Below are positions 4,880 through 61,446 of a DNA stretch of 64,000 bases, in pieces (within the stretch, counting starts at the first letter, position 1; each line of letters begins with the position of its first letter). A program made the position numbers and the translations under genes. Below the pieces are notes generated by a model that saw only the letters and a list, made by a program, of their open reading frames with translations, had not been told where the DNA came from and searched no databases. The DNA lies in the NCBI RefSeq assembly GCF_006335145.1, contig NZ_VDMN01000003.1, positions 62,001-126,000 on the forward strand, written 5' to 3'. This DNA is from Aliirhizobium smilacinae. Lineage in GTDB: Bacteria > Pseudomonadota > Alphaproteobacteria > Rhizobiales > Rhizobiaceae.

Positions 4880-5128
4880 GAGACGGCTCCTAAAAAATGA
4901 ACGAAAATGGTCGTGTCGTTCGATGTTTATGGACCAATGTAAAAAAACGGTCGAGCCCAAAAAATCTCTTGATTATGACGGCGAATATTCTTATCTCCCG
5001 CTTTGCCCAAAGTCGCACGTGCCCATGGGTGTCCGCCGACCCTCGAATTGAGATTTATCTCTAAGGTGAGGTCATCGGTAAGGTACCTGGAACTAACCCC
5101 TCCAGTCGCTACTCCGGCCAACCGGAAA

Positions 5129-5170
5129 ATGCGAGGACATCTGAAGCAACGACGGTGCGGGCCTTTCTAG
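5129..5170 (+). CDS. possible 13-codon upstream ORF in the speF leader
   Basis: ATG to TAG encodes MRGHLKQRRCGPF. It lies inside the most conserved-looking part of the leader and is rich in Arg and Lys, which could make it arginine- or polyamine-sensitive. The Shine-Dalgarno is weak (CGGAAA immediately before ATG). Gammaproteobacterial speF is controlled by a leader peptide (SpeFL); this peptide does not resemble that one. It may be chance. Confidence 0.25.
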   Translation: MRGHLKQRRCGPF

Positions 5171-5379
5171 TCTCTGCAGGCTTTCCATCAGCCTGCAATT
5201 CTGAAGAGGCACACCATCATTGCCGGAAGTGCGGTAGGGACAACCCTCCAATCCAAGGCAGACAAAGCCGGATCAAAGCTCGTGGCAGGGCGTTGGTCTA
5301 CATATCGCGCGGTGAAGCGTGCTCACGGTACCAGTGTCTCCAACTACTGGGCCGAGCGCATTCTTATCCGTCCTTTGTC

Positions 5380-50114: not shown

Positions 50115-51284
50115 TTATTGCGTAAGCAGGGTCTTGCTGGCACTCGCTTCTTCGCCGATTGCCTTGAATGCATCCAGCAGGTCCGACATGCTTTCTGCCG
50201 CATAATAGTATCCTGCGCCGCTTGAGCATTTGTTCAGAAGTGTTTGACCTGCCGTTGGCGCCATGAATGCTATCGAATAAATCTTGATGCCGGCTGCCTT
50301 GGCGGATGTGCATGTCGTCAACGTATTGGTGTTGGACGAATCTTTGTTATTCGAGCCATCAGTCATAAAGACTATGTATTTCGTCAGCTTTGTGTTTCCA
50401 GCGTCACTCTGAATTTTACTTTCAGAGCCGTTGCCGGTTGTATTAAGATTATCGAATGCCTTCTTCATCGGCGCATACGATTCGGTGTTTCCACCCGCAG
50501 ACATGGTGTTGATGACATCAGTTCTGGTTTTCGTCGTCCCCCAAGCAAAAGTGCTTGAATCTTGGATTGTACCGCTCCACGCGATCGCGTTCGTGCGGAC
50601 AAATTTGGACTTCGGGTCTGCCTTGTCGAGCTGATCCAGCAGGAGATTGGCGGCGGTCTTGAGAGCGTCAATTTTCTTAACGTAGCACGGATAAGTGGCC
50701 TTGATCGGGCTTCCGCCAGTGTCGTACTGCTGGCAGCTTGTTGCCGGTTTGATCTGCTCACCGGTATTAGCCAACATCGATCCGGATTCGTCCAGCACGA
50801 GTGTCATCGACAGTGCGCTTTTCGTCTCGCTGATACCGCTTGTCGTCGAGCTGCTGGCGGCGATCGGTGTAGACGTCTTTCCGAAGAAAGACATGAAAGG
50901 TGTCAGGGTGAGAGTGTAGCCGGAAGCGACCTGAATATCGTAGCGTTTCCCATCCGATGTCGTCGTTGTCGTGATTGTCGCGGTGATCGATTTGGCAATG
51001 TCGTTCGCAACGTCGGAAGTGACTGAGTTTGCCATCTGGCCTTTGATGAAATTCGAAGCCAGTTTTTTGGCGCCGTCTTCAGTGGCGGACGAATCCTGTG
51101 CCATGTAAGTGGCGACAGCCAGGGTTGCTGCGTCGGTTGCCTCTTGAAGATCGCGTTTGGAGCGCATCATGTTCGATACATCAACCGCCAGTCCTCCTGC
51201 GCCAATCAGCACCGGCAACAGGATTGCGGTTATTATGCCGAAGTTTCCACTCCGGTCAGCTGACAGTCGCTTAAGCATGGACAT
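50115..51284 (-). CDS. TadG-like pilus-assembly protein with VWA domain
   Basis: This 389-residue protein has a TadE/TadG-type N-terminal membrane segment (about 10-33, GNFGIITAILLPVLIGAGGL), a VDVSNMMRSKRDLQEATDAA helix, and a von Willebrand A domain from about 155 with a MIDAS (LVLDESGSM) and MTDGSNN. It is a secreted or membrane-anchored adhesion or pilus-associated protein. It looks AT-richer than its neighbours and has many Thr/Ser/Asn runs. No other tad gene is nearby. ATG 51284 was taken; the next Met is at 51278. Confidence 0.8.
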   Translation of the reverse strand: MSMLKRLSADRSGNFGIITAILLPVLIGAGGLAVDVSNMMRSKRDLQEATDAATLAVATYMAQDSSATEDGAKKLASNFIKGQMANSVTSDVANDIAKSITATITTTTTSDGKRYDIQVASGYTLTLTPFMSFFGKTSTPIAASSSTTSGISETKSALSMTLVLDESGSMLANTGEQIKPATSCQQYDTGGSPIKATYPCYVKKIDALKTAANLLLDQLDKADPKSKFVRTNAIAWSGTIQDSSTFAWGTTKTRTDVINTMSAGGNTESYAPMKKAFDNLNTTGNGSESKIQSDAGNTKLTKYIVFMTDGSNNKDSSNTNTLTTCTSAKAAGIKIYSIAFMAPTAGQTLLNKCSSGAGYYYAAESMSDLLDAFKAIGEEASASKTLLTQ

Positions 51285-51416
51285 GGTCTGATCGCCCCGA
51301 TCGATGTTTGCGCCATACAAACATTCGCAGGCGAAACTACTCGGGAGGTTGCGAAGGATCGTCTAAAGAAACCTATCGCATTTTATCGATCTGCCAAAAT
51401 CAGCGCCAAAACGGGT

Positions 51417-52295
51417 CTACTTGACCGGAATCACGTCAACCGCCTGATCGATCTTCTGATTTCCGTAACCTTTAATGACCCCGATCACGGGTGCCACGTC
51501 GGAATAGTCACGTCCGTAACCGACGACGATATGATCGCTGCCGGCGGCAATGTCGTTGGTCGGGTCGAGCTCCACATATCCAACAGCATCGCCACACCAG
51601 ACGCGCACCCAGGCATGCATCGCGTCGGCGCCTTCCAGTCGTTCCTTGCCGGCTGGCGGAATGGTTCGCAGGAAGCCTGAGACATAGCCTGCGGGAATGC
51701 CGAGGCTTCTGAGCGCCACGATCATCACATGGGAGAAATCCTGGCAGACGCCGCGCTTCAGCTTGAAGGCTTGCTTCGGTGTCGTGTCCACCGTCGTTGC
51801 TTCGGCATCGTATTTGAAATCCCTGTGAATGCGGGTGCAGAGGGCGGTGGCGATCTCGCGCGCGGTCTGGCCCGGCTTCAGGGTCTCGCGCGCATAGGCC
51901 GCGATTGACGGCTCTTCGGGCAATCTCGGGCTGGCACCGGTCAGATGGTGGGGTGAGGACGGATCGACCGACCAGACGTCGGCCAGTTCCTTGCGGAGCT
52001 CTTCAAGCGGCGGTGAAAGATCGGCGGTCATCGTCGGGGCCTCGACCATGACGCGCGCCTGCATACGGATATCCAGCCGCTCATGGGGAGCACGGACAAG
52101 CACGGACGTAGCCTGTTGACCGAAGAAATCGATGAAGGTGACTTTTTCGTCCGTCGCAGGCGATACCGTGACCGAACCGACGATCAGACGCTGACGATCC
52201 GGCAGGGAAAGGGGAAGGACGCGAATGACATGGCGGGCGCCGAAGGCCGGGGCGTCATAGGCGTAGCCCATGTGGAGAGAGAGGTCGTAGAGCAT
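51417..52295 (-). CDS. transglutaminase-like cysteine protease-fold protein
   Basis: This 292-residue protein has a beta-rich N-terminal domain typical of bacterial transglutaminase-like proteins and a core with the triad C184 (RGVCQDFSH), H227 (DAMHAWV) and D244 (ELDPTND). It should cleave or form amide bonds; substrate unknown. It is the third gene of a set with DUF2126 and ATP-grasp/alpha-E genes, 21 nt after the latter. No signal peptide is seen, so it is cytosolic. Confidence 0.9.
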   Translation of the reverse strand: MLYDLSLHMGYAYDAPAFGARHVIRVLPLSLPDRQRLIVGSVTVSPATDEKVTFIDFFGQQATSVLVRAPHERLDIRMQARVMVEAPTMTADLSPPLEELRKELADVWSVDPSSPHHLTGASPRLPEEPSIAAYARETLKPGQTAREIATALCTRIHRDFKYDAEATTVDTTPKQAFKLKRGVCQDFSHVMIVALRSLGIPAGYVSGFLRTIPPAGKERLEGADAMHAWVRVWCGDAVGYVELDPTNDIAAGSDHIVVGYGRDYSDVAPVIGVIKGYGNQKIDQAVDVIPVK

Positions 52296-52316
52296 TCGTC
52301 GTTCCTCTCCTGTCGA

Positions 52317-54737
52317 TCAGCTGAAATAGGTCTGGCCGAGAATATCGGAGAGTTTTTCCAGATCATTCTCCAATCGGCGGTAGACATCCTCGTTCATCGT
52401 TTCCGGCGTCATCACCGCAAGTCCGGAATGAAGGCGCATGGCCTCGCGGTAGAAGGGCGACATCTGGCCGTTGACGAAGGCGTTCGGCAGTTTTTCCACC
52501 TCGTTGCGGATCTCGTTGAGCTGGAACAGAATCGAGCGTGGGTTGAGCGGATCGAGCGCCAGCAGGTCGTTGACCGTCAGCCTTGCGGTATTGACGTTGT
52601 AGCGGCGCCGGTGGGTCATGACGCTGTCGCCGATCTCGAGCAACATGTCGAGCGCGCCATCGGGCGCATCCGGGCCGGAGAGGTGGGCAAGCAACCGCGT
52701 CATGTGCAGGGCGCGCTCCAGATGACGCCCGATCGACAGGAAACGCCAGCCGGTGAAGCGGTACATGTTTTCATGCACGAGGCCGGCAAAACCTGCGAGC
52801 TTGCGCAAGAGAATGGTCGAGGCGTGGGCCGCGTCATCTCCCGGCTGTGCCGCTTCATGAAAACGCTTGGTGGTCTTGGCGAGATCGGTCAAGGCCAGCC
52901 AGCCATCCGGCGAAAAACGGTCGCGGATATTGCTTGCCGAATAGATGGCGCTGTTGATGTTGGCGAGCAACGGCGCAGGCACGGCCTTCGCCATGTCCAT
53001 GTCGATCGACTTCAAATAAAGCGTGACATCGGCAAGCAGCGGCGCGTCGGGATTGGCCGATTCCGCGTAGCGCAAGTGCCAGGCGCGCAGGATGCGCAGC
53101 GCCCCTTCGGCCCGCTCGATATAGCGGCCAAGCCAGTAGAGATTGTCGGCAGCGCGGCTCGGCAGCGAGCCCGGCATGGTGCGGGTGAAACTTTCTTCCG
53201 GCGGCAGAAGCGTCGATTTCGAGACCGGCTTGTCGGAGACGATCCACACATCGGCCGCAGCACCACCGGATTGCATGGCGATCGCCGCCACATCATCACC
53301 GGAGCCGATACGGGCGAAGCCGCCGGGCATGATCTCCCAGCCGTTTTCCGTACGGGCGGCAAAGACGCGCAGCGACATCGGCCTTGGCGTCAGCTTGCCG
53401 TCCACCCAGGCAGGCGTCGTCGAGAGCGTGACGACTTCCTGGCCGACGAGTTTTGCGCCTTCGCTGGCAAGCCAGTCACCGACCGTCTCTTTCGCGGTCT
53501 CGCGCAGCGACGAACCGAGCACGGACTGGCTGTTGTCGTCGAAGAAGGGCAGGCGGGAATAGGCGGGGCCGATGACCATGCGCTCGATGTTTTTTGCCAC
53601 ATGTTCCCGCTCGGACTGCTGGCCGCACCACCAGGTGGCGATCGAGGGCAGGATCGGGTCTTCTCCCAGCAGATGGCGGCAGATGGTGGGCGCGAATGCG
53701 AGAAGCGCGCGCGTTTCAAGGATGCCGGAACCTAACGCGTTGACCAGCGTCAGCGAACCGGACCGGAGCGCCTGCACCATGGCGGGCGTGCCGATATGGG
53801 AGTTCTGGTCGAGTTCGAGCGGATCGGCATAGGACGCATCGAGACGGCGCCAGAGCACGCCGACGGGCTTCAAGCCAGCGACGGTGCGTACCATGACGCG
53901 GTTGTTGACGACCGTCAGGTCCTCGCCTTCGAGCAGCATGAAACCGAGATAACGGGCTATATAGGCATGCTCGAAATAGGTCTCGTTGGCCGGGCCGGGA
54001 GACAATACGGCGATGCGGTCATCCGGATATTGCTTGCGGGACTGTAGTGCATCGCGGAATGCGCCGAAGAAAGAGGCGAGGCGGTGGACGTGGGTCTCGC
54101 CGTATATGTCGGAGAAGGAGCGGGTCGTGGCGACGCGGTTTTCGAGCGCGAAACCGGCACCCGAGGGCGCCTGGGTGCGGTCGGCAAGAACCCACCAGTT
54201 GCCATCGGGTCCGCGGCCGATCTCGAAGGAGCAGAAATGCAGGTAGTGGCCACCGACCGGCTTTACCCCGACCAGCGGGCGCAAAAATTCCGGATTGGCT
54301 GCGATCAGCTGCGGCGGTAGGAAACCTTCCTGCACCAGCCGGTTCTCGCCGTAGATATCGGCGATCATTGCTTCGAGCAGATCGGCACGCTGCTGCAGGC
54401 CGCGCGAGACGGTTTCCCACTCCCGGCCGTCGATCAGCACGGGGATGTGCGACAGCGGCCAGTTGCGCTCTCCGGTTCCACTGGCGCCCGGGCCGCCATA
54501 GGTTCTGTAGAAGACGCCGGCGTCGCGCAGATAACGGTCGGCGCGGGCAAAACGTTCGTGCAGGTCGCCTTCCGACAGGCGGCTGAGATGGTCGATGAGG
54601 TTCTGCCAGACCGGCTTGATTTCACCACGCGCATCGAGCATTTCATCGGCGATGCCGGGCAACGCGGCATAACCGAGGATCGGATCGTTTTCGATCTCCT
54701 CATCCATGCGGCGTTCGCTTGCCGGTCCTGTGCTCAA
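52317..54737 (-). CDS. circularly permuted ATP-grasp / alpha-E fusion protein
   Basis: This 806-residue protein has a circularly permuted ATP-grasp domain (about residues 70-470; NRVMVRTVAGLKPVGVLWRR and LTLVNALGSGILETRALLAF) followed by an alpha-E helical domain (from about 490; RAADNLYWLGRYIERAEG). In many genomes these are two genes. ATP-grasp forms an amide from an acyl-phosphate; alpha-E is of unknown function. TTG 54737 has AAGGAG 11 nt upstream; ATG 54707 has no ribosome site. It lies 6 nt after the DUF2126 gene. Confidence 0.85.
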   Translation of the reverse strand: MSTGPASERRMDEEIENDPILGYAALPGIADEMLDARGEIKPVWQNLIDHLSRLSEGDLHERFARADRYLRDAGVFYRTYGGPGASGTGERNWPLSHIPVLIDGREWETVSRGLQQRADLLEAMIADIYGENRLVQEGFLPPQLIAANPEFLRPLVGVKPVGGHYLHFCSFEIGRGPDGNWWVLADRTQAPSGAGFALENRVATTRSFSDIYGETHVHRLASFFGAFRDALQSRKQYPDDRIAVLSPGPANETYFEHAYIARYLGFMLLEGEDLTVVNNRVMVRTVAGLKPVGVLWRRLDASYADPLELDQNSHIGTPAMVQALRSGSLTLVNALGSGILETRALLAFAPTICRHLLGEDPILPSIATWWCGQQSEREHVAKNIERMVIGPAYSRLPFFDDNSQSVLGSSLRETAKETVGDWLASEGAKLVGQEVVTLSTTPAWVDGKLTPRPMSLRVFAARTENGWEIMPGGFARIGSGDDVAAIAMQSGGAAADVWIVSDKPVSKSTLLPPEESFTRTMPGSLPSRAADNLYWLGRYIERAEGALRILRAWHLRYAESANPDAPLLADVTLYLKSIDMDMAKAVPAPLLANINSAIYSASNIRDRFSPDGWLALTDLAKTTKRFHEAAQPGDDAAHASTILLRKLAGFAGLVHENMYRFTGWRFLSIGRHLERALHMTRLLAHLSGPDAPDGALDMLLEIGDSVMTHRRRYNVNTARLTVNDLLALDPLNPRSILFQLNEIRNEVEKLPNAFVNGQMSPFYREAMRLHSGLAVMTPETMNEDVYRRLENDLEKLSDILGQTYFS

Positions 54738-54743
54738 TTGACG

Positions 54744-57700
54744 TCATACTCCTTGCGGTCGGCGTAGATCGAGCGTCAGAGGGAATTCGGGCGAAGGCGT
54801 CTCCGGCAGGAGGGGATAAGATCCCGCCGTATGACCCCAGGGCTCGAATCGCGCCAGACGCCGCGCTTCCGCCTCGTTGCCGTTCACCGGGAAGGTCTCA
54901 TAATTGCGGCCGCCCGGATGTGCAACATGATATCTGCAGCCGCCGATCGCGCGGCCGGACCATGTATCATAGATGTCGAATGTAAGCGGCGTGTTAACCG
55001 GCAACATCGGATGCAGGCCGGATCTCGGCTGCCAGGCCTTGAAACGCACGCCGGCAACCGAGACACCGGACTGATCGGTCTGTTTCAGGGGAACGGCACG
55101 GCCAGCGCAGGCGACGGTGTAGCGTGAGGGGGTGGAGGTTTCGAGCCGCACCTGCAGCCGCTCGACCGAACTGTCGACAAAACGCACCGTACCGCCGATT
55201 GCGCCCTGTTCGCCCATCACGTGCCATGGTTCCAGCGCCTGCCGCAGTTCCAGCTTGGCGCCTTCGTATTCCACCTCGCCGAAGAAGGGGAAGCGGAATT
55301 CCAGCTGCGCCTCGAACCACTCGGAACGAAGATCGAAGCCGTTCTCGCGCAAGTCCTGAAGCACGTCCATGAAATCGGCCCAAATGTAATGGCCGAGCAT
55401 GAAGCGGTCGGCGAGTGCCGTACCCCAGCGGGTGAACTTGCCCTGCAACGGGTTCTTCCAGAAACGGGCGATCAGCGCGCGCACGAGCAATTGCTGGGCA
55501 AGCGACATGCGGGCATTCGGCGGCATTTCGAAACCGCGGAACTCGACGAGGCCGAGGCGACCGGTCGGGCCGTCCGGCGAAAACAGCTTGTCGATGCAAA
55601 TTTCCGAACGGTGGGTATTGCCGGTGACGTCGGTCAAGAGATTGCGGAACAGACGATCGACCAGCCAGGGCAAAGGCGGCTGGCCCTGGCCGGGTGCCGG
55701 CACCTGCGCCAGTGCGATCTCGAGTTCGTAGAGGCTGTCGTGGCGCGCCTCGTCGATGCGGGGGGCCTGACTGGTGGGGCCAATGAACAGGCCGGAGAAA
55801 AGATAGGAAAGCGAGGGGTGGCGCTGCCAGTGCAGTACGAGGCTCTTCAACAGGTCGGGCCGGCGCAGGAAGGGGCTGTCGTTCGGGTTGGCGCCGCCGA
55901 CCACCACGTGGTTGCCGCCGCCGGTGCCGGTGTGGCGGCCGTCGATCATGAACTTGTCGGCGCCGAGCCTGCTCTGACGTGCCTCCTCATAGACGGCGGT
56001 GGTGATATCGACCGTCTCCTTCCAGCTCGCTGCCGGATGAATGTTGACCTCAATGACGCCCGGATCGGGTGCGACGCGAATGACGTTGATGCGCTCATCA
56101 TGCGGCGGGGCATAGCCCTCGATATGAACCGCTAGCCCGAGCTCTGCGGCGGCATTTTCGGCCGCTGCTATCAGCTCGAGATAATCTTCGATCTTTTCGA
56201 CCGGAGGCATGAAGACGCACAGGCGGCCGTCACGCGGTTCGACTGAAATTGCCGTGCGCACTGCGCCACCGATCTCGCCGAGCGTCTGCTCGACGCGGCC
56301 CGGGTTGGTCGGGTCGCCTGCCGTGAAAGATGATTCCGGCATGGCGCGGCCTTCCATCGCCGCGCGCCCTGCGGGTACGATGGTCTCGGGCAGTGAGGAA
56401 CGGGGGATGGAGGGATCGGATTCGTGGATGTAGGGAAACTGAGACGGCGGGATATGAGGCAGAGTGCCGAGCGGCAGGCGGTAGCCGACGGGGCTGTCGC
56501 CGGGCACGAGGAAGATACGGCCGCGACGGGTGTTCCATTTCTCGCTAATCCAGCGCTTTTCGCCAGGCTTGCCGCGTGCCTGTGATTGCCAGGCCTGAAC
56601 CGGCAGCACATAGCCGCTCGGGCTTGTCAGGCCGCGCTCGAAGACGCGGGCTATGCGGTTGCGCTCTTCCGGGTCCTTGAGTTTCGAGTTGGAGGGATCG
56701 ACGTTGTCGGGCAGCGAGCCTTCCTTGATGATCCATTCCGCCGGGTCCTCGTAGGCGGGCACGACCATTTCCGGCTCTATCCCGAGTTCGGAGGCGAGTG
56801 CCGTCAGAAAGTTTTGCGAGTCCGTCTCGCCGACCTCATAGTCACCGCCTTCTTTTGCCACCAGATCCGGGTTCTTCCAGATTGGTTTGCCGTCCTTTCG
56901 CCAGTAGAGCGAAAAGGTCCAGCGCGGCAGGCTTTCGCCAGGATACCACTTGCCCTGGCCGTAATGCAGAAAACCGCCGGGCGCGAATTTTTTGCGCAGC
57001 TTGCGGACAAGGATGTCCGCCTTCTCACGCTTGGTGGGACCGACGGCGTCTGTGTTCCACTCTTCCGCCTCGAAATCGTCGATGGAGACGAAGGTCGGCT
57101 CGCCACCCATGGTGAGGCGCACGTCCTGTGCCTGCAGCACGCGGTCCACTTCTTCGCCCAGGCTGTTCAGGGCTTCCCAGCTTTCATCGGAGAATGGCTT
57201 GGTGATGCGCGGATGTTCGGCAACGCGGGTGACGTTCATGGCGAAGTCGAAAGACGTCTCCGCCTCGCCGAAATAGCCGCCGGAGATCGGCGCAGCGTTG
57301 CGGTAATGCGGCGTGGCGGCCAGCGGGATGTGACTTTCGCCCGTGAGCAGGCCAGAGGTCGGGTCGAGGCCCACCCAGCCGGCGCCGGGCAGATAGACTT
57401 CGCACCAGGCGTGCAGATCGGTGAAATCCACCTCGGTGCCGGAAGGGCCGTTAAGCGCCTTCAGGTCGGGTGTCAACTGGATGAGGTAGCCGGAGACAAA
57501 ACGGCAGGCGAAGCCGAGATTGCGGAGGATCTGGACGAGCAGCCAGCTGCTGTCGCGACAGGAGCCGATCGCCGATGTCAGCGTCTGTTCAGGCGTCTGT
57601 ACGCCCGGCTCCATGCGGATGACGTAACCGATCGCCTGCTGCAGACGGGCATTGATACCGACGATCATATCGACTGTCGGCTGGTCGGGCGACATGTCGA

Positions 57701-58100
57701 AATGTTTCAGATATTCGATCAGAGCCGGGCCGGGCGGTTCCGGGATCATGTAGACCGCAAGGTCTTCGGCGAGTTCCTCGGGATATTTGAACGGCCATCT
57801 GGTCGCCTCTTCCTCGACGAAAAAGTCGAAGGGATTGTAGACCGTCATATCCGCGACGAGATCGACCTCGATTTTCAGCTCCGTTGCCGGATCGGGGAAA
57901 ACGAAACGGGCGAGATAGTTGCCGTAAGGGTCCTGCTGCAGATTGACGAAGTGGTTTTCAGGCGTGACCTTCAGCGAGTGGCTGAGTACCTTGGTGCGCG
58001 AATGCGCAGCAGGCTTGAGGCGGATGATCTGGGGTCCGAGACGGACGGGCTTGTCGTATATGTAATGGGTGAGATGGTAGATGCTCGCCTTGATCGACAT
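54744..58100 (-). CDS. transglutaminase-DUF2126 (putative amidoligase) protein
   Basis: This 1118-residue protein has an N-terminal transglutaminase-like domain with C181 (IGSCRDSSW), H230 (DLHAWCE) and D246 (GLDPTSG), and a large DUF2126 domain from about 300 to the end, described as a putative amidoligase. DUF2126 marks include [17 protein letters not shown] and [15 protein letters not shown]. It should pair amide cleavage with amide synthesis. AAGGGA precedes ATG 58100. It is the first gene of a three-gene operon. No experimental substrate is known to me. Confidence 0.9.
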
Positions 58101-58273
58101 GCTGTCCCTTCAATTGCCCTTGCCGGGCGTTCCCTTCGATCGCCGATATCCGGCCTCGTTGAGCGGGTCGGTGCATCGTCGTTGAACTAAGTTTGTGCAA
58201 TGCATGAAAAGAATGCAAGGCGATCTTATGCTTATTTTTCAGCCTCGTCGCCTGGCATCCTATGTGACTGAGT

Positions 58274-58738
58274 TCAGCCTTCGTCCGAGTAGGGTCTGCC
58301 GTCTTTGTGGACGAAGCGGCCATCGGAATTGGAACTCTTCAAGTCTATGTCGGAGCACGTGGTCATGTCCTGATGATGGCGGGAACCGATCTCGATATAG
58401 ATAGCAACCGTGTCAGACCTGTTGATCATGTGGTGACCATTGCCGGAGTTCTTGGGAAAGGCTGCCACATCGCCTGCGTGCAGCAGGGTTTCACTGTCGT
58501 CCTCGATCAGCACGAGTTCGCCTTTCACGACGTAGACCAGTTCGTCCTCGTGCGAATGCCAGTGGCGCTGGCTGGACCAGTTTCCCGGCGGCAGATGCAT
58601 GAGGTTGACGCCGAAATCCTTGAGGCCACCGGCCTTACCGAGCCGTTGCCGCAGGCGGTCGGCACAGGGAGCGTCGAAAGGAGGCGGATAACCGGAGCCT
58701 TTTTCGGTCGGCATGGCAGCGAGATCGATCTTCGGCAT
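58274..58738 (-). CDS. cupin domain protein
   Basis: This 154-residue protein has a single cupin barrel: RHWHSHEDELVYVVKGELVL carries the first motif (H-x-H-x-E) and GDVAAFPKNSGNGHHMINRS the second (Gly/His), so it likely binds a divalent metal. Substrate unknown; the family includes XRE-linked and sugar-binding forms. It lies about 170 nt upstream of the DUF2126 gene on the same strand, so it may be co-transcribed but need not be functionally linked. Confidence 0.85.
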   Translation of the reverse strand: MPKIDLAAMPTEKGSGYPPPFDAPCADRLRQRLGKAGGLKDFGVNLMHLPPGNWSSQRHWHSHEDELVYVVKGELVLIEDDSETLLHAGDVAAFPKNSGNGHHMINRSDTVAIYIEIGSRHHQDMTTCSDIDLKSSNSDGRFVHKDGRPYSDEG

Positions 58739-58891
58739 GACTGTCTCCCAACTGAGCTTTCTCCAGGCATCATATAGGGTGATGAAAATCGGAAATCGAA
58801 GGTGAAGGCGTGTCGTCTGTACAACCCTTTACCGCGTGGTAAGTCTGCAGGCAGCATAGAGTCATGACATTGCGAGAGGAGCCCGTCGCAG

Positions 58892-60715
58892 ATGTCTCAA
58901 GCGGCCACAGCAGCAACCGAACCATATGAACTTCCGCTTTCCGGCCAGCTTCGGATGATGATGGGGGCATTCTGGGCGTCACCCGTGCGTCGGCATCTGG
59001 TGATGCTCGCGAGCGCGCTTTTGATCATCATCGTCGCTACGACCTATGCGACCTATCGGCTGAACGAGTGGAACGGGCCGTTCTACGACGCATTGGAACG
59101 GCGCGACATGGCCGGCTTCCTTCGACAGCTCGGTGTGTTCGGTATCATCGCATTTTGCCTGACGCTGCTGAACGTCATCCAGACCTGGCTGAACCAGATC
59201 ACCGCGCTGAAAATGCGCGAGGGGCTGGCGCGGGATCTCGCCAATGTCTGGCTGACGCCGGGGCGTGCGCTGAAGCTTGCCGGCGCGGGATCGATCGCCA
59301 ACAATCCCGATCAGCGGTTGCATGAAGACACCCGTATCCTGGCGGAGAACACGACGGCGTTGTCGATCGGCCTCGTCAACTCCACCATCCTGCTCGGCAG
59401 TTTCATCGGCGTGCTCTGGGCGATCTCGACCGATTTCGGCTTCCAGATTGCCGGCCACCATGTCGTTATCCCGGGCTATATGCTGTGGGCGACAATCCTT
59501 TATGCGCTGATCGGCTCCGTGCTCAGCAATGTCGTGGGCAGCATGCTGGCGCGGCTCAACGCGGATCGATATGCCCGCGAGGCGGATCTGCGTTCGGCTC
59601 TCGTACGTGCCAATGAGAACCTGAAACCGATTACGCTGGCGCGTGGCGAGCCGAACGAGCTTTTACGCGTGCAGGATGCGATCGGCGGCGTACTCGGCAT
59701 GTTGCGCAAGCTTGCATGGGCGCTCACCAATCTCACCTGGGTATCCTCCGGCTTCGGCTGGCTGGCGCTGGTGGCGCCGATCATCATCGCCTCTCCGATG
59801 TATTTTTCCGGCGAACTGACTTTCGGCGGGCTGATGATGGCGGTCGGCGCCTTCAATCAGGTGAACACGGCCCTGCGCTGGTACGTGACCAATTTCAGCG
59901 TCATCGCCGATTGGCGGGCAACGCTTGCCCGCGTTTCCTTTTTCCGCAATGCGCTGCTGATGGCCGACACGCCGGCAAAGGAAGGGGAGGTCATCAGCTA
60001 TAAGCGCGGCACGAAAGACGATGGGCTTTCGGTGACGGGTGTCGAAGTTTATGGCGAGCCGGACAAGGGGGCCGATGGCCACGGCATCAAACTGAAAGAG
60101 GACGCATTTACCGTCGAACCCGGTGAGCGCGTGATGGTCAATGGGGATCCCGGGACGGACCGTCATCTGTTCTTCCAGGCGCTTGCCGGCATATGGCCCT
60201 GGGGCAAGGGCGAGATCCGGGTGCCGCAGGCAGACAGGGTGATCCTGATGCCGCAGGAAGGTTATCTGCCGACTGCGAAGCTGCGCGAGGTCATGACCTA
60301 TCCTTCGGGCATTCCCGATGTCACCGACGAGGCGCTGAAGGCTGCCTTGCTGCAGGTGGGGCTCGATCGCTATGTCGAGCAACTGGATAGGGTGGAACGC
60401 TGGGACCGGGTTCTTGACAAGGAGGAGGAGGCGGCGCTGCAGGTGGCCAATGCCGTTTTGCGCAAGCCCGACTGGCTTTTCATGGACGATGTGCTGGAAG
60501 GATTGGAACCGGAGGTGCGCGTGCAGCTGATCGGCGTTCTTGACGGATTGAAGGACACGACGCTGATTTATGTCGGCCGCTCGGAAGATTTTGCCAACAC
60601 ATTCAAGCCGAAGATTTTCCATGTCGCACCGCTTCATCCGAACGGGACAAACGAAGCGAAACTTCAGGACGGGGATGGAATGGCCACTGCCTCGGACAAT
60701 GGTGAAAAGCCATGA
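58892..60715 (+). CDS. SbmA/YddA-type ABC transporter with degenerate ATPase domain
   Basis: This 607-residue protein has an ABC_membrane_2 (YddA/SbmA-like) N-terminal domain with about six helices (38-345; LNEWNGPFYDALERRD is a family mark) and a C-terminal ABC-like domain. That domain has lost its catalytic motifs: Walker A reads GDPGTDRH (418-425; Lys absent), the signature reads LDKEEEA (about 508-514), Walker B ends MDD (531-533; Asp for Glu), and the H-loop reads VGRSED. The Q-loop (MPQEGYLP) remains. It should bind ATP poorly or not at all. A 4-nt overlap joins the DUF1003 gene. Confidence 0.85.
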   Translation: MSQAATAATEPYELPLSGQLRMMMGAFWASPVRRHLVMLASALLIIIVATTYATYRLNEWNGPFYDALERRDMAGFLRQLGVFGIIAFCLTLLNVIQTWLNQITALKMREGLARDLANVWLTPGRALKLAGAGSIANNPDQRLHEDTRILAENTTALSIGLVNSTILLGSFIGVLWAISTDFGFQIAGHHVVIPGYMLWATILYALIGSVLSNVVGSMLARLNADRYAREADLRSALVRANENLKPITLARGEPNELLRVQDAIGGVLGMLRKLAWALTNLTWVSSGFGWLALVAPIIIASPMYFSGELTFGGLMMAVGAFNQVNTALRWYVTNFSVIADWRATLARVSFFRNALLMADTPAKEGEVISYKRGTKDDGLSVTGVEVYGEPDKGADGHGIKLKEDAFTVEPGERVMVNGDPGTDRHLFFQALAGIWPWGKGEIRVPQADRVILMPQEGYLPTAKLREVMTYPSGIPDVTDEALKAALLQVGLDRYVEQLDRVERWDRVLDKEEEAALQVANAVLRKPDWLFMDDVLEGLEPEVRVQLIGVLDGLKDTTLIYVGRSEDFANTFKPKIFHVAPLHPNGTNEAKLQDGDGMATASDNGEKP

Positions 60716-61446
60716 ACAACCATTCTTCCGTCACCAGGAACGGTCAACCCAAAAGCGGGCAATGCGTCGTCTGTGGCCGAACCTTTCCGCTGTCGAAGCT
60801 GCACAAGGCAGGAAGCCTCAGGCCACACCTTTACGAGATGATCGCAGAGGAAGTGAAGGATTGCGCGCCGACCAGCCTGATCTGCGATGAGGATCTCGCG
60901 CGCTTCCGGCGCCGCTATGTCGAGAGGCTTCTGGAAGAGGAACGGGGCGAGCTTTCCGATCTCGACCAGAAGGTTCTGGACGGTTTCGAGAAAGGCACGC
61001 TGACGGTGCAGGCGAATTCCGTGACCGCATCCGACAGAAAGTCGACTTTTGGCGAGAGGGTTGCCGACAAGGTGGCTTCCTTCGGCGGGTCGTGGACTTT
61101 CATCCTGTCTTTCCTCGGCGTCCTCGTGATCTGGATGGGCGTCAATGTCGTCGGCATCTTCGCTCAACCGTTCGACCCCTATCCGTTCATTCTCCTCAAC
61201 CTCGTGCTTTCCTGTCTTGCCGCGTTGCAGGCACCGGTCATCATGATGAGCCAGAAAAGGCAGGAGGAGAAAGACCGGCTCAGAGCCGAGAACGACTACA
61301 TGATCAATCTGCGCGCCGAGCTCGAAATCCGGCAATTGCACGAGAAGATCGACCACCAGATGGCCAAGCAGTGGGAACGGCTGGCGGAATTGCAGCAGAT
61401 CCAGATCGAGCTTCTGGAAAAGCGGGATGACCCGCGACGCGAGTGA
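60712..61446 (+). CDS. DUF1003 membrane protein
   Basis: This 244-residue protein has an N-terminal Cys pair (CVVCGRTF, about 18-25) suggesting a zinc knuckle, then two membrane helices (128-150, 160-180) with the DUF1003 mark DPYPFILLNLVLSCLAALQAP, and a basic, coiled-coil C-terminal tail (from about 190). DUF1003 function is unknown. It overlaps the ABC-like gene by 4 nt (ATGA), so it is translationally coupled to it. A C-terminal heptad-like pattern suggests self-association. Confidence 0.88.
   Translation: MNNHSSVTRNGQPKSGQCVVCGRTFPLSKLHKAGSLRPHLYEMIAEEVKDCAPTSLICDEDLARFRRRYVERLLEEERGELSDLDQKVLDGFEKGTLTVQANSVTASDRKSTFGERVADKVASFGGSWTFILSFLGVLVIWMGVNVVGIFAQPFDPYPFILLNLVLSCLAALQAPVIMMSQKRQEEKDRLRAENDYMINLRAELEIRQLHEKIDHQMAKQWERLAELQQIQIELLEKRDDPRRE

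Follow-up and report, generated by a model that had tools for sequence, protein, structure and literature searches.

What chemistry can be expected of a compact gene cluster that encodes two ligase-like proteins together with two transglutaminase (TG) domains, and is each of its apparent ligases still a working enzyme? This question is raised by a three-gene locus of Aliirhizobium smilacinae, situated in a 64,000-nucleotide stretch of contig NZ_VDMN01000003.1 (positions 62,001 to 126,000) that was analyzed as a whole and is called the window below. The locus combines a TG domain fused to DUF2126, a circularly permuted (CP) ATP-grasp fused to an alpha-E domain and a second TG, and it had been read from the DNA letters as one undescribed machine that makes and cuts amide bonds (the original prediction). 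The fused ATP-grasp keeps its fold but few of the residues predicted to form its active site. The genes and domains concerned are the following, in window coordinates:

54744 to 58100, minus strand: gene for the fusion of TG and DUF2126, 1118 amino acids (Pfam)
54762 to 57266, minus strand: DUF2126 domain, residues 279-1113, a predicted ATP-dependent carboxylate-amine ligase (Pfam, fold and conservation)
52317 to 54737, minus strand: gene for the fusion of CP-ATP-grasp and alpha-E, 806 amino acids (Pfam and structure model)
53232 to 54647, minus strand: ATP-grasp domain, residues 31-502, predicted to be catalytically dead from the alignment, fold retained
52323 to 53165, minus strand: alpha-E domain, residues 525-805, with the E-R motifs E541-R542 and E674-R675 retained (Pfam)
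51417 to 52295, minus strand: separate TG gene, 292 amino acids, with the triad C184-H227-D244 (Pfam)

Open reading frames (ORFs), Pfam searches and alignments of relatives confirmed the three genes with their domain content, the two Cys-His-Asp triads and the gaps of 6 and then 21 nucleotides between the ORFs, all of which lie on the minus strand. The 6-nt gap presupposes the TTG start of the 806-residue gene; an in-frame ATG (M11) is located ten codons (30 nt) further in and would widen the gap to 36 nt. All four families for which profile searches had been proposed, DUF2126, CP-ATP-grasp, alpha-E and transglutaminase, were matched by Pfam. The 1118-residue protein contains Bact_transglu_N, Transglut_core and DUF2126 (1337 bits), the 806-residue protein CP_ATPgrasp_2 and CP_ATPgrasp_1 (461 and 288 bits) followed by Alpha-E (194 bits), and the 292-residue protein Bact_transglu_N and Transglut_core. 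The cluster consequently shows the co-occurrence of CP-ATP-grasp, alpha-E and transglutaminase, along with a DUF2126 ligase resembling glutamine synthetase (GS). Both TG domains possess the Cys-His-Asp triad of the transglutaminase-like superfamily: C181, H230 and D246 of the fused domain stand at the predicted positions and are each present in 144 of 144 relatives, and in the separate TG the Cys and His are found in 127 of 127 relatives and the Asp in 126, the remaining one having a gap.

The comparative set consisted of 162 loci, namely the window, a second locus of the same genome, 80 genome regions (64 around DUF2126 and 16 around stand-alone alpha-E genes) and 80 loci from a contig scan. 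The 64 DUF2126 regions were drawn from 83 other DUF2126 genomes, 81 of them listed, with 13 from well-covered families and four more left out, and the contig-scan loci were the best 80 of 591 confirmed stretches, mostly from Alphaproteobacteria. DUF2126 is carried by 145 of the 162 loci, which are not independent because 80 loci are the best matches of one scan in which Alphaproteobacteria predominate.

An alignment of the fused protein with the stand-alone ATP-grasp of the same genome and with the stand-alone structure 3n6x revealed that ADR replaces EDN, that the glycine loop is disrupted and that S replaces D in the DLR motif. Eight positions were scored, designated E203, N205, D363, K364, K411, G420, D471 and N502 in the numbering of the stand-alone protein; in the window protein they are occupied by A185, R187, T342, R343, G390, Q404, S455 and A487, respectively. 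The positions had been picked after a first look at 56 fused and 48 stand-alone proteins and with GspS in mind, and they were then scored on the larger set; their catalytic status is judged from conservation and the example of GspS. All eight residues are present in 49 of 49 stand-alone proteins. Among the 128 fused proteins, that of the window included, 91 have none of them, 36 have one and a single protein has two.

This pattern was seen again in two additional sets. Four fused proteins from Burkholderia cenocepacia, Granulicella, Enterobacter and Azospirillum keep one of the eight residues each and three stand-alone proteins keep all eight, and in a further set 12 fused proteins, Tsukamurella among them, keep none or one, again with all eight in three stand-alone proteins. 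The 16 added fused proteins, none with more than one of the eight residues, include one from Acidobacteriota and one from Actinomycetota. Since residues that are invariant in one group necessarily look worse in the other, the remaining 83 positions invariant in the stand-alone proteins were used as a control; they are kept in a median of 77% of the fused proteins, and 34 of them in at least 90%. Of the features expected of an active ATP-grasp enzyme, the 806-residue protein hence displays the fold, and the metal- and nucleotide-binding residues (E-x-N, two lysines and the glycine loop) are missing. The original prediction had counted the ATP-grasp among the makers of amide bonds, a view that is difficult to maintain with at most two of the eight predicted active-site residues kept in each of 144 fused proteins. 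A loss of catalytic residues in most homologs, which it had named as an argument against itself, is what was found for the ATP-grasp, since no more than two of the eight are kept, and this finding counts only as far as the eight residues are catalytic.

The loss of residues is not accompanied by a loss of structure or by decay of the gene. The AlphaFold2 model of the 806-residue protein has a predicted local distance difference test score (pLDDT) of 86 and matches 3n6x with a Z score of 44.4 over 444 residues (root-mean-square deviation, rmsd, 3.1), glutathione synthetases with Z scores of up to 25.6 and GspS with Z scores of 20.5-21.7. In six comparisons with relatives, the ratio of nonsynonymous to synonymous substitution rates (dN/dS) was 0.05-0.20 for the fused gene, with high dS values in several of them, and 0.08-0.21 and 0.06-0.20 for the neighboring TG-DUF2126 and TG genes. 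The fused gene is under purifying selection. Moreover, in a tree of 91 rows, comprising a random draw of 45 of the 128 fused and 45 of the 49 stand-alone proteins plus the reference, the two forms are separated by one branch with a support of 100; some of the fused rows are long-branched, and joins between these rows are flagged by a warning of the tool.

The strong domain scores and the fully kept ATP-grasp fold would suit a cluster in which every domain is active, DUF2126 and the fused ATP-grasp acting as successive ligases and the TG domains trimming or transferring their product. Such an arrangement also draws on a third acidic position that is retained, one predicted metal ligand (E172 in the window protein) being D or E in 128 of 128 fused proteins. 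With at most two of the eight predicted metal- and nucleotide-binding residues per fused protein in the sets of 128, 4 and 12 proteins, however, we consider it highly improbable. The replacements themselves suggest another alternative, in which the old pocket has acquired a new chemistry or ligand and is not a passive scaffold. At several pocket positions the replacement is nearly as conserved as the lost residue, as illustrated by S213G and D362E (127 of 128 fused proteins each), N205R (113 of 128) and R207Q (112 of 128), but the glycine loop is gone and, like K411, replaced in a variable manner, and a structural or binding role accounts for the new residue pattern equally well. A new chemistry appears unlikely to us, and the residue loss would mean that the fused protein does not catalyze.

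The correspondence with GspS is less precise than that with 3n6x. A comparison of GspS with the stand-alone ATP-grasps by hhalign, using one sequence, yielded nothing significant. For the GspS profile all 30 added sequences were used, 19 of which matched GspS by phmmer; its best local match pairs D318, E330 and N332 of GspS with D190, E203 and N205, which is only a hint. We take E203-x-N205 to be the counterpart of the Mg-binding E330-x-N332 of GspS, an assumption that fits this best, non-significant profile match. The lysines were placed relative to GspS by motif order only.

If the fused ATP-grasp is inactive, DUF2126 becomes the candidate for the live ligase of the cluster. The DUF2126 part of the model of the 1118-residue protein matches chains of the glutamine-synthetase type with Z scores of 10.8-12.4 over 216-274 residues at an rmsd of 3.3-4.6 (50 rows shown), and its TG part matches 3isr with a Z score of 20.0; a sequence search of the PDB with the same protein gave notable matches confined to the TG part. 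The GS fold expected of the glutamine-synthetase/GCS superfamily is thus found in DUF2126, in a model with a pLDDT of 69. Of the polar DUF2126 positions, 12 were checked, and 11 of them do not vary among the 144 proteins; E334, E684, N686, H731, E853, R855 and E858 are present in all 144. These residues may represent the acidic and His/Arg active-site motifs of glutamine synthetases in their usual order. On the basis of model and conservation, DUF2126 is taken as the predicted live ligase of the cluster. The papers cited by PMC number are drawn on here through excerpts of their text. A fusion of a transglutaminase with a ligase of the GS superfamily was published in 2008 by Iyer, Burroughs and Aravind (PMC2588565); in the excerpt, such architectures are placed in the carboxylate-amine ligase superfamily, peptide synthesis is suggested over protein conjugation and a search of the neighborhood is reported to have found no Pup-like small ORF.

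On one strand, DUF2126 is followed by ATP-grasp/alpha-E and then by TG in 116 of the 145 DUF2126 loci, which bears out the conserved order of an amidoligase/transglutaminase cluster that had been predicted. The fusion of ATP-grasp and alpha-E, which had been regarded as special to the window, turned out to be the usual form, a fused gene being located somewhere in 129 of the 145 loci. Sixteen DUF2126 loci are without it. In ten of these the sequence extends for at least 4 kb to either side, so that the absence there is local but real; the others have a short flank on one side or both. In 299 genomes sampled evenly across the phylum, DUF2126 was present in 84 and alpha-E in 156, the latter including 84 of the 84 DUF2126 genomes, 76 of which contain at least two copies of alpha-E. 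Two alpha-E copies are present in 11 of the 72 alpha-E genomes that gave no DUF2126 match, and each of these 11 contains a fused gene with at most one of the eight residues kept and, in 10 cases, an adjoining TG; one of them (G207) is 74% complete with a contig of 4.3 kb, and DUF2126 may have been missed there. As each occurs without the other, the fused gene and DUF2126 are not tied: the pseudo-ligase and TG pair can exist without DUF2126, and some DUF2126 loci have no pseudo-ligase. An obligate pairing of the fused protein with DUF2126 was accordingly dropped in view of these 11 genomes and 10 well-flanked loci. The closest DUF2126 proteins among the matches listed are those of a Rhizobiales isolate (92% identity), Agrobacterium (84%) and Rhizobium (at most 83%), and no relative of the DUF2126 protein was found in the viral contigs searched.

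The view of the cluster as one machine requires a qualification. The A. smilacinae genome contains a second locus with an apparently live stand-alone ATP-grasp and a TG adjoining a second alpha-E gene, approximately 265 kb away on the same contig. None of the six proteins from the two loci received a name from NCBIfam at an E value of 0.001. In other lineages both modules share one locus, as an ATP-grasp without alpha-E is additionally present in 36 of the 145 DUF2126 loci; one locus counted here (L174) has an ORF that ends at the contig end and may be a truncated fused gene. A live role of the stand-alone ATP-grasp is supported by the enzyme of the Yersinia bercovieri Anbu operon, since this protein releases phosphate from ATP (PMC6376114).

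Anbu-like genes were detected in 23 of the 162 loci, corresponding to 13 loci with DUF2126 and to 22 of the 53 loci with a stand-alone ATP-grasp. One Anbu-like representative belongs to the proteasome family according to Pfam PF00227 (30 bits, cut-off 22), and a further Anbu-like ORF, from Acidithiobacillus caldus, has no Pfam match. Anbu was not found in the A. smilacinae genome, where the sole PF00227 match is HslV-like and lies beside an AAA protein; a divergent Anbu could be missed, because one Anbu-like protein scores 30 bits with this profile and another does not match it. We take the proteasome-family protein of A. smilacinae to be HslV and the AAA protein that follows to be HslU. Anbu is not universal in the system. 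Two plasmid-borne loci are recorded here as separate observations. On an A. caldus megaplasmid, a cluster of DUF2126, stand-alone ATP-grasp and alpha-E is flanked by ntrC, glnL and two Anbu-like ORFs, with an aliphatic amidase downstream and insertion sequences nearby, and a 90-kb IncFII plasmid of Enterobacter roggenkampii carries an apparently live and a pseudo-ligase module together with DUF2126.

These data can be combined into a model in which the window cluster would be the accessory arm of a predicted CP-ATP-grasp/alpha-E/transglutaminase(/Anbu) amide-bond system. DUF2126, with its glutamine-synthetase fold, would be the sole ligase of the cluster expected to use ATP, activating a carboxylate (perhaps of a gamma-glutamyl compound or a peptide) and joining it to an amine. 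The two TG domains with their intact triads would cut or transfer amide bonds in the same kind of product via a thioester. The 806-residue protein would serve as a conserved, non-catalytic pseudo-ligase that binds or positions the substrate or partner proteins, and its partner could be the live stand-alone ATP-grasp/alpha-E module located approximately 265 kb away. We give an even chance to this accessory arm with DUF2126 as the only live ligase, thiol chemistry of the TGs and a non-catalytic ATP-grasp/alpha-E subunit. The broader proposition seems slightly better than evenly balanced, namely that there are two paralogous ATP-grasp/alpha-E arms, one live and the other an alpha-E-fused pseudo-ligase with its own TG and often a ligase of the GS fold, in which the dead ATP-grasp has become a dedicated scaffold or sensor in the manner of a pseudokinase.

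Several observations weigh against this model. The eight sites were selected post hoc, partly with GspS in mind, and the loss of residues is not confined to them, because retention falls below 10% of the fused proteins at 27 of the 91 invariant positions, 21 of which lie outside the chosen eight. Some of the pocket also persists: at the counterpart of the GspS metal ligand D318 (D190), 75 of the 128 fused proteins have D and the other 53 have E, R193 persists in 125 of them and R473 in all 128, Arg takes the place of K364 in 78, and 13 retain the Lys at K411. The profile match with GspS falls short of significance (31 sequences, best local match of 23 columns, E value 0.26). The pLDDT of the 1118-residue model is only the value of 69 given above, and the polar position D341 of DUF2126 varies (D in 127 of 144 proteins). 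Fused genes occur in 11 genomes in which DUF2126 was not found, and among the 16 DUF2126 loci that have no fused gene, 10 are well flanked. To our knowledge, the system has no demonstrated product. Pull-downs with proteins of the Y. bercovieri Anbu operon gave no specific interaction (PMC6376114).

The product may be a conjugate of a small peptide or an amine, as favored by PMC2588565 and by the link to nitrogen described below, or a protein tag, which is among the hypotheses for the Anbu operon in PMC6376114. The latter corresponds to a tagging of proteins with a peptide or an amino acid that is reversed by Anbu or the transglutaminases, as published as a prediction for the Anbu operon (PMC6376114, PMC5666114). 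It gains from the 13 DUF2126 loci with Anbu-like genes, 11 of which have the Anbu-like gene at most 150 nt from that for DUF2126 or in overlap with the ORF called for it. Nevertheless, we regard tagging as doubtful in view of the A. smilacinae genome, in which Anbu was not found and the sole proteasome-family match is HslV-like, and of the excerpt of PMC2588565, where no Pup-like small ORF was found nearby and small peptides were preferred.

A physiological role in nitrogen economy can be proposed tentatively, according to which the whole system conjugates amines or peptides as gamma-glutamyl or peptidyl amides under starvation and releases them later. In the ntrC mutant of B. cenocepacia H111, four genes described as DUF404/407, DUF403, TG and a large TG protein fall by log2 values of 8.2, 9.4, 9.4 and 6.0, respectively (PMC5491218). 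The gene order in H111 matches that of a locus in another B. cenocepacia strain (L224) and we infer that both are the same operon, although the best sigma-54-like match upstream of the latter covers just 7 of 11 positions. In Pseudomonas putida, PP_2685 and PP_2688 are up on nitrate compared with ammonium (PMC8050072) and PP_2686-2688 are up under nitrogen limitation (PMC7801951), but PP_2685 is nearly flat in one data column of the latter study and the rpoN mutant apparently still shows induction. Additionally, the abundance of the domains tracks urea metabolism in marine metagenomes (PMC3597751), and ntrC and glnL adjoin the cluster of A. caldus.

Sigma-54-like sites with at least 10 of 11 matches are located upstream of 12 of 51 stand-alone modules compared with 7 of 773 other ORFs of at least 200 amino acids in the same loci, many of which are not real genes; 0.15 sites were expected by first-order resampling, and the p-value of 3e-11 is too small because the rows are related. 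This signal does not extend to the window, where the best upstream match is 5 of 11 for the operon and 7 of 11 for the stand-alone module of the same genome, and of the 30 sigma-54 sites found in the window with at most two mismatches, none directly precedes the operon. The DUF2126 upstream regions likewise show no clear enrichment at 10 or more matches (3 of 143, p 0.2) and a weak one at 9 or more (21 of 143 versus 55 of 773, p 0.004), and a site is present at one of 10 hand-listed alphaproteobacterial stand-alone modules. A Caulobacter NtrC study, searched by term in the excerpt, mentions neither alpha-E nor ATP-grasp (PMC10274813), and regulation does not identify the substrate. Some relatives thus respond to nitrogen starvation, and the window operon has no sigma-54 site. 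Expression of the Anbu operon was unchanged in several other conditions (PMC5666114). In Sinorhizobium meliloti SM11, the regulatory region of a COG2308 (CP-ATP-grasp) gene appeared in a genome-wide association of nodule competitiveness (PMC8407117). One unspecified ATP-grasp protein with a predicted site in a Bradyrhizobium RpoN list was set aside, its family membership not being discernible from the excerpt (PMC13207237).

A different conserved sequence precedes the operon of the window, 94-119 nt before the first start codon of the DUF2126 gene:

58194 to 58219, minus strand: upstream element CTTGCATTCTTTTCATGCATTGCACA

Its loose form, CTTGC[AT]-(8-10 nt)-GCATT[GC][AC]ACA, was found upstream of 16 of the 143 DUF2126 genes scanned, all in Rhizobium-like records, and 14 of these 16 have the strict form CTTGCWTT-N7-YGCATTGCACA. 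The element was present at 15 of 15 hand-chosen Rhizobium-like loci, and relatives outside this group were without it. The strict form occurs perfectly just once in the A. smilacinae genome, in the window; a genome scan for a regulon gave, besides this copy, only two matches with three mismatches, compared with two in the control. The TGC-N3-GCA core may resemble a PhaR operator. A scan for sigma-70-type sites yielded three compared with 2.3 expected, and an Rfam scan of the window two matches, neither of them at the cluster. An Rfam ar45 small RNA adjoining the speF leader is located at 5005-5331 (plus strand).

The cluster is bordered at window positions 58274-61446 by a cupin gene and, on the opposite strand, by genes for a SbmA/BacA-like transporter and a DUF1003 protein, and downstream, at 50115-51320 (minus strand), by a gene for a Tad/VWA protein, all according to Pfam. 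A neighbor family with a median length of 415 amino acids, to which a window ORF belongs, was found in 14 loci, which apart from the window come from the contig scan; it probably represents the Tad/VWA gene and plain synteny.

With DUF2126 in 84 and alpha-E in 156 of the 299 evenly sampled genomes the system is common, and to call any of the fused copies examined an 'ATP-grasp protein' is misleading. The split between live and dead ATP-grasps tells which protein to assay, which mutants to construct and which gene to use as a negative control, and an apparent ligase that is seemingly dead yet preserved provides a sharp experimental test of the system.

A comparison with known systems shows which parts of these results are new. 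We take Rv2566 to be a DUF2126 protein. The Rv2566-type fusions share the TG and ligase architecture with the 1118-residue protein, and the excerpt of PMC2588565 discusses neither an activity nor an ATP-grasp/alpha-E partner or its state. The Anbu operon (Iyer 2009, as cited in PMC6376114 and PMC5666114) has the ATP-grasp, alpha-E and transglutaminase families in common with the window, and some loci hold both modules together with Anbu-like genes. By contrast, the window cluster has DUF2126 and a fused ATP-grasp that is predicted to be dead, in a genome in which Anbu was not found. In the excerpts of papers from 2017 and 2021, the Anbu complex of the related operon is still without an assigned function, and in PMC10318531, searched by term in the excerpt, the 2009 paper is cited only in the reference list. 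A cytotoxic transglutaminase of mycobacteria (PMC12113844) was set aside as a possible relative, the excerpt showing no link to the TG family of the window. Among the matches listed from the open-licence PMC literature, which does not cover Iyer 2009 as the likeliest source, we found no statement that the fused ATP-grasp is inactive. The fusion of DUF2126 and TG and the prediction of the Anbu operon have both been published, and the families, the fusion and the system are already in print or in databases, which takes from the cluster the status of an undescribed system. What appears to be new is the disappearance of most predicted active-site residues throughout the branch of fused ATP-grasps, and the cluster is a member of a known, predicted kind. 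The Rlo operon of Pseudomonas aeruginosa likewise unites an ATP-grasp, a protein with a transglutaminase fold and a peptidase, but its ATP-grasp is RimK-related, its membrane transglutaminase is inactive and its retropepsins are secreted, with no mention of DUF2126 or alpha-E in the excerpt (PMC12239564). The closest structural counterpart is 3n6x, a stand-alone CP-ATP-grasp of Methylobacillus flagellatus annotated as a putative glutathionylspermidine synthase, which has the same fold as the 806-residue protein but retains the EDN, KEVQGSGGYG and DLRP motifs that the fused protein has lost.

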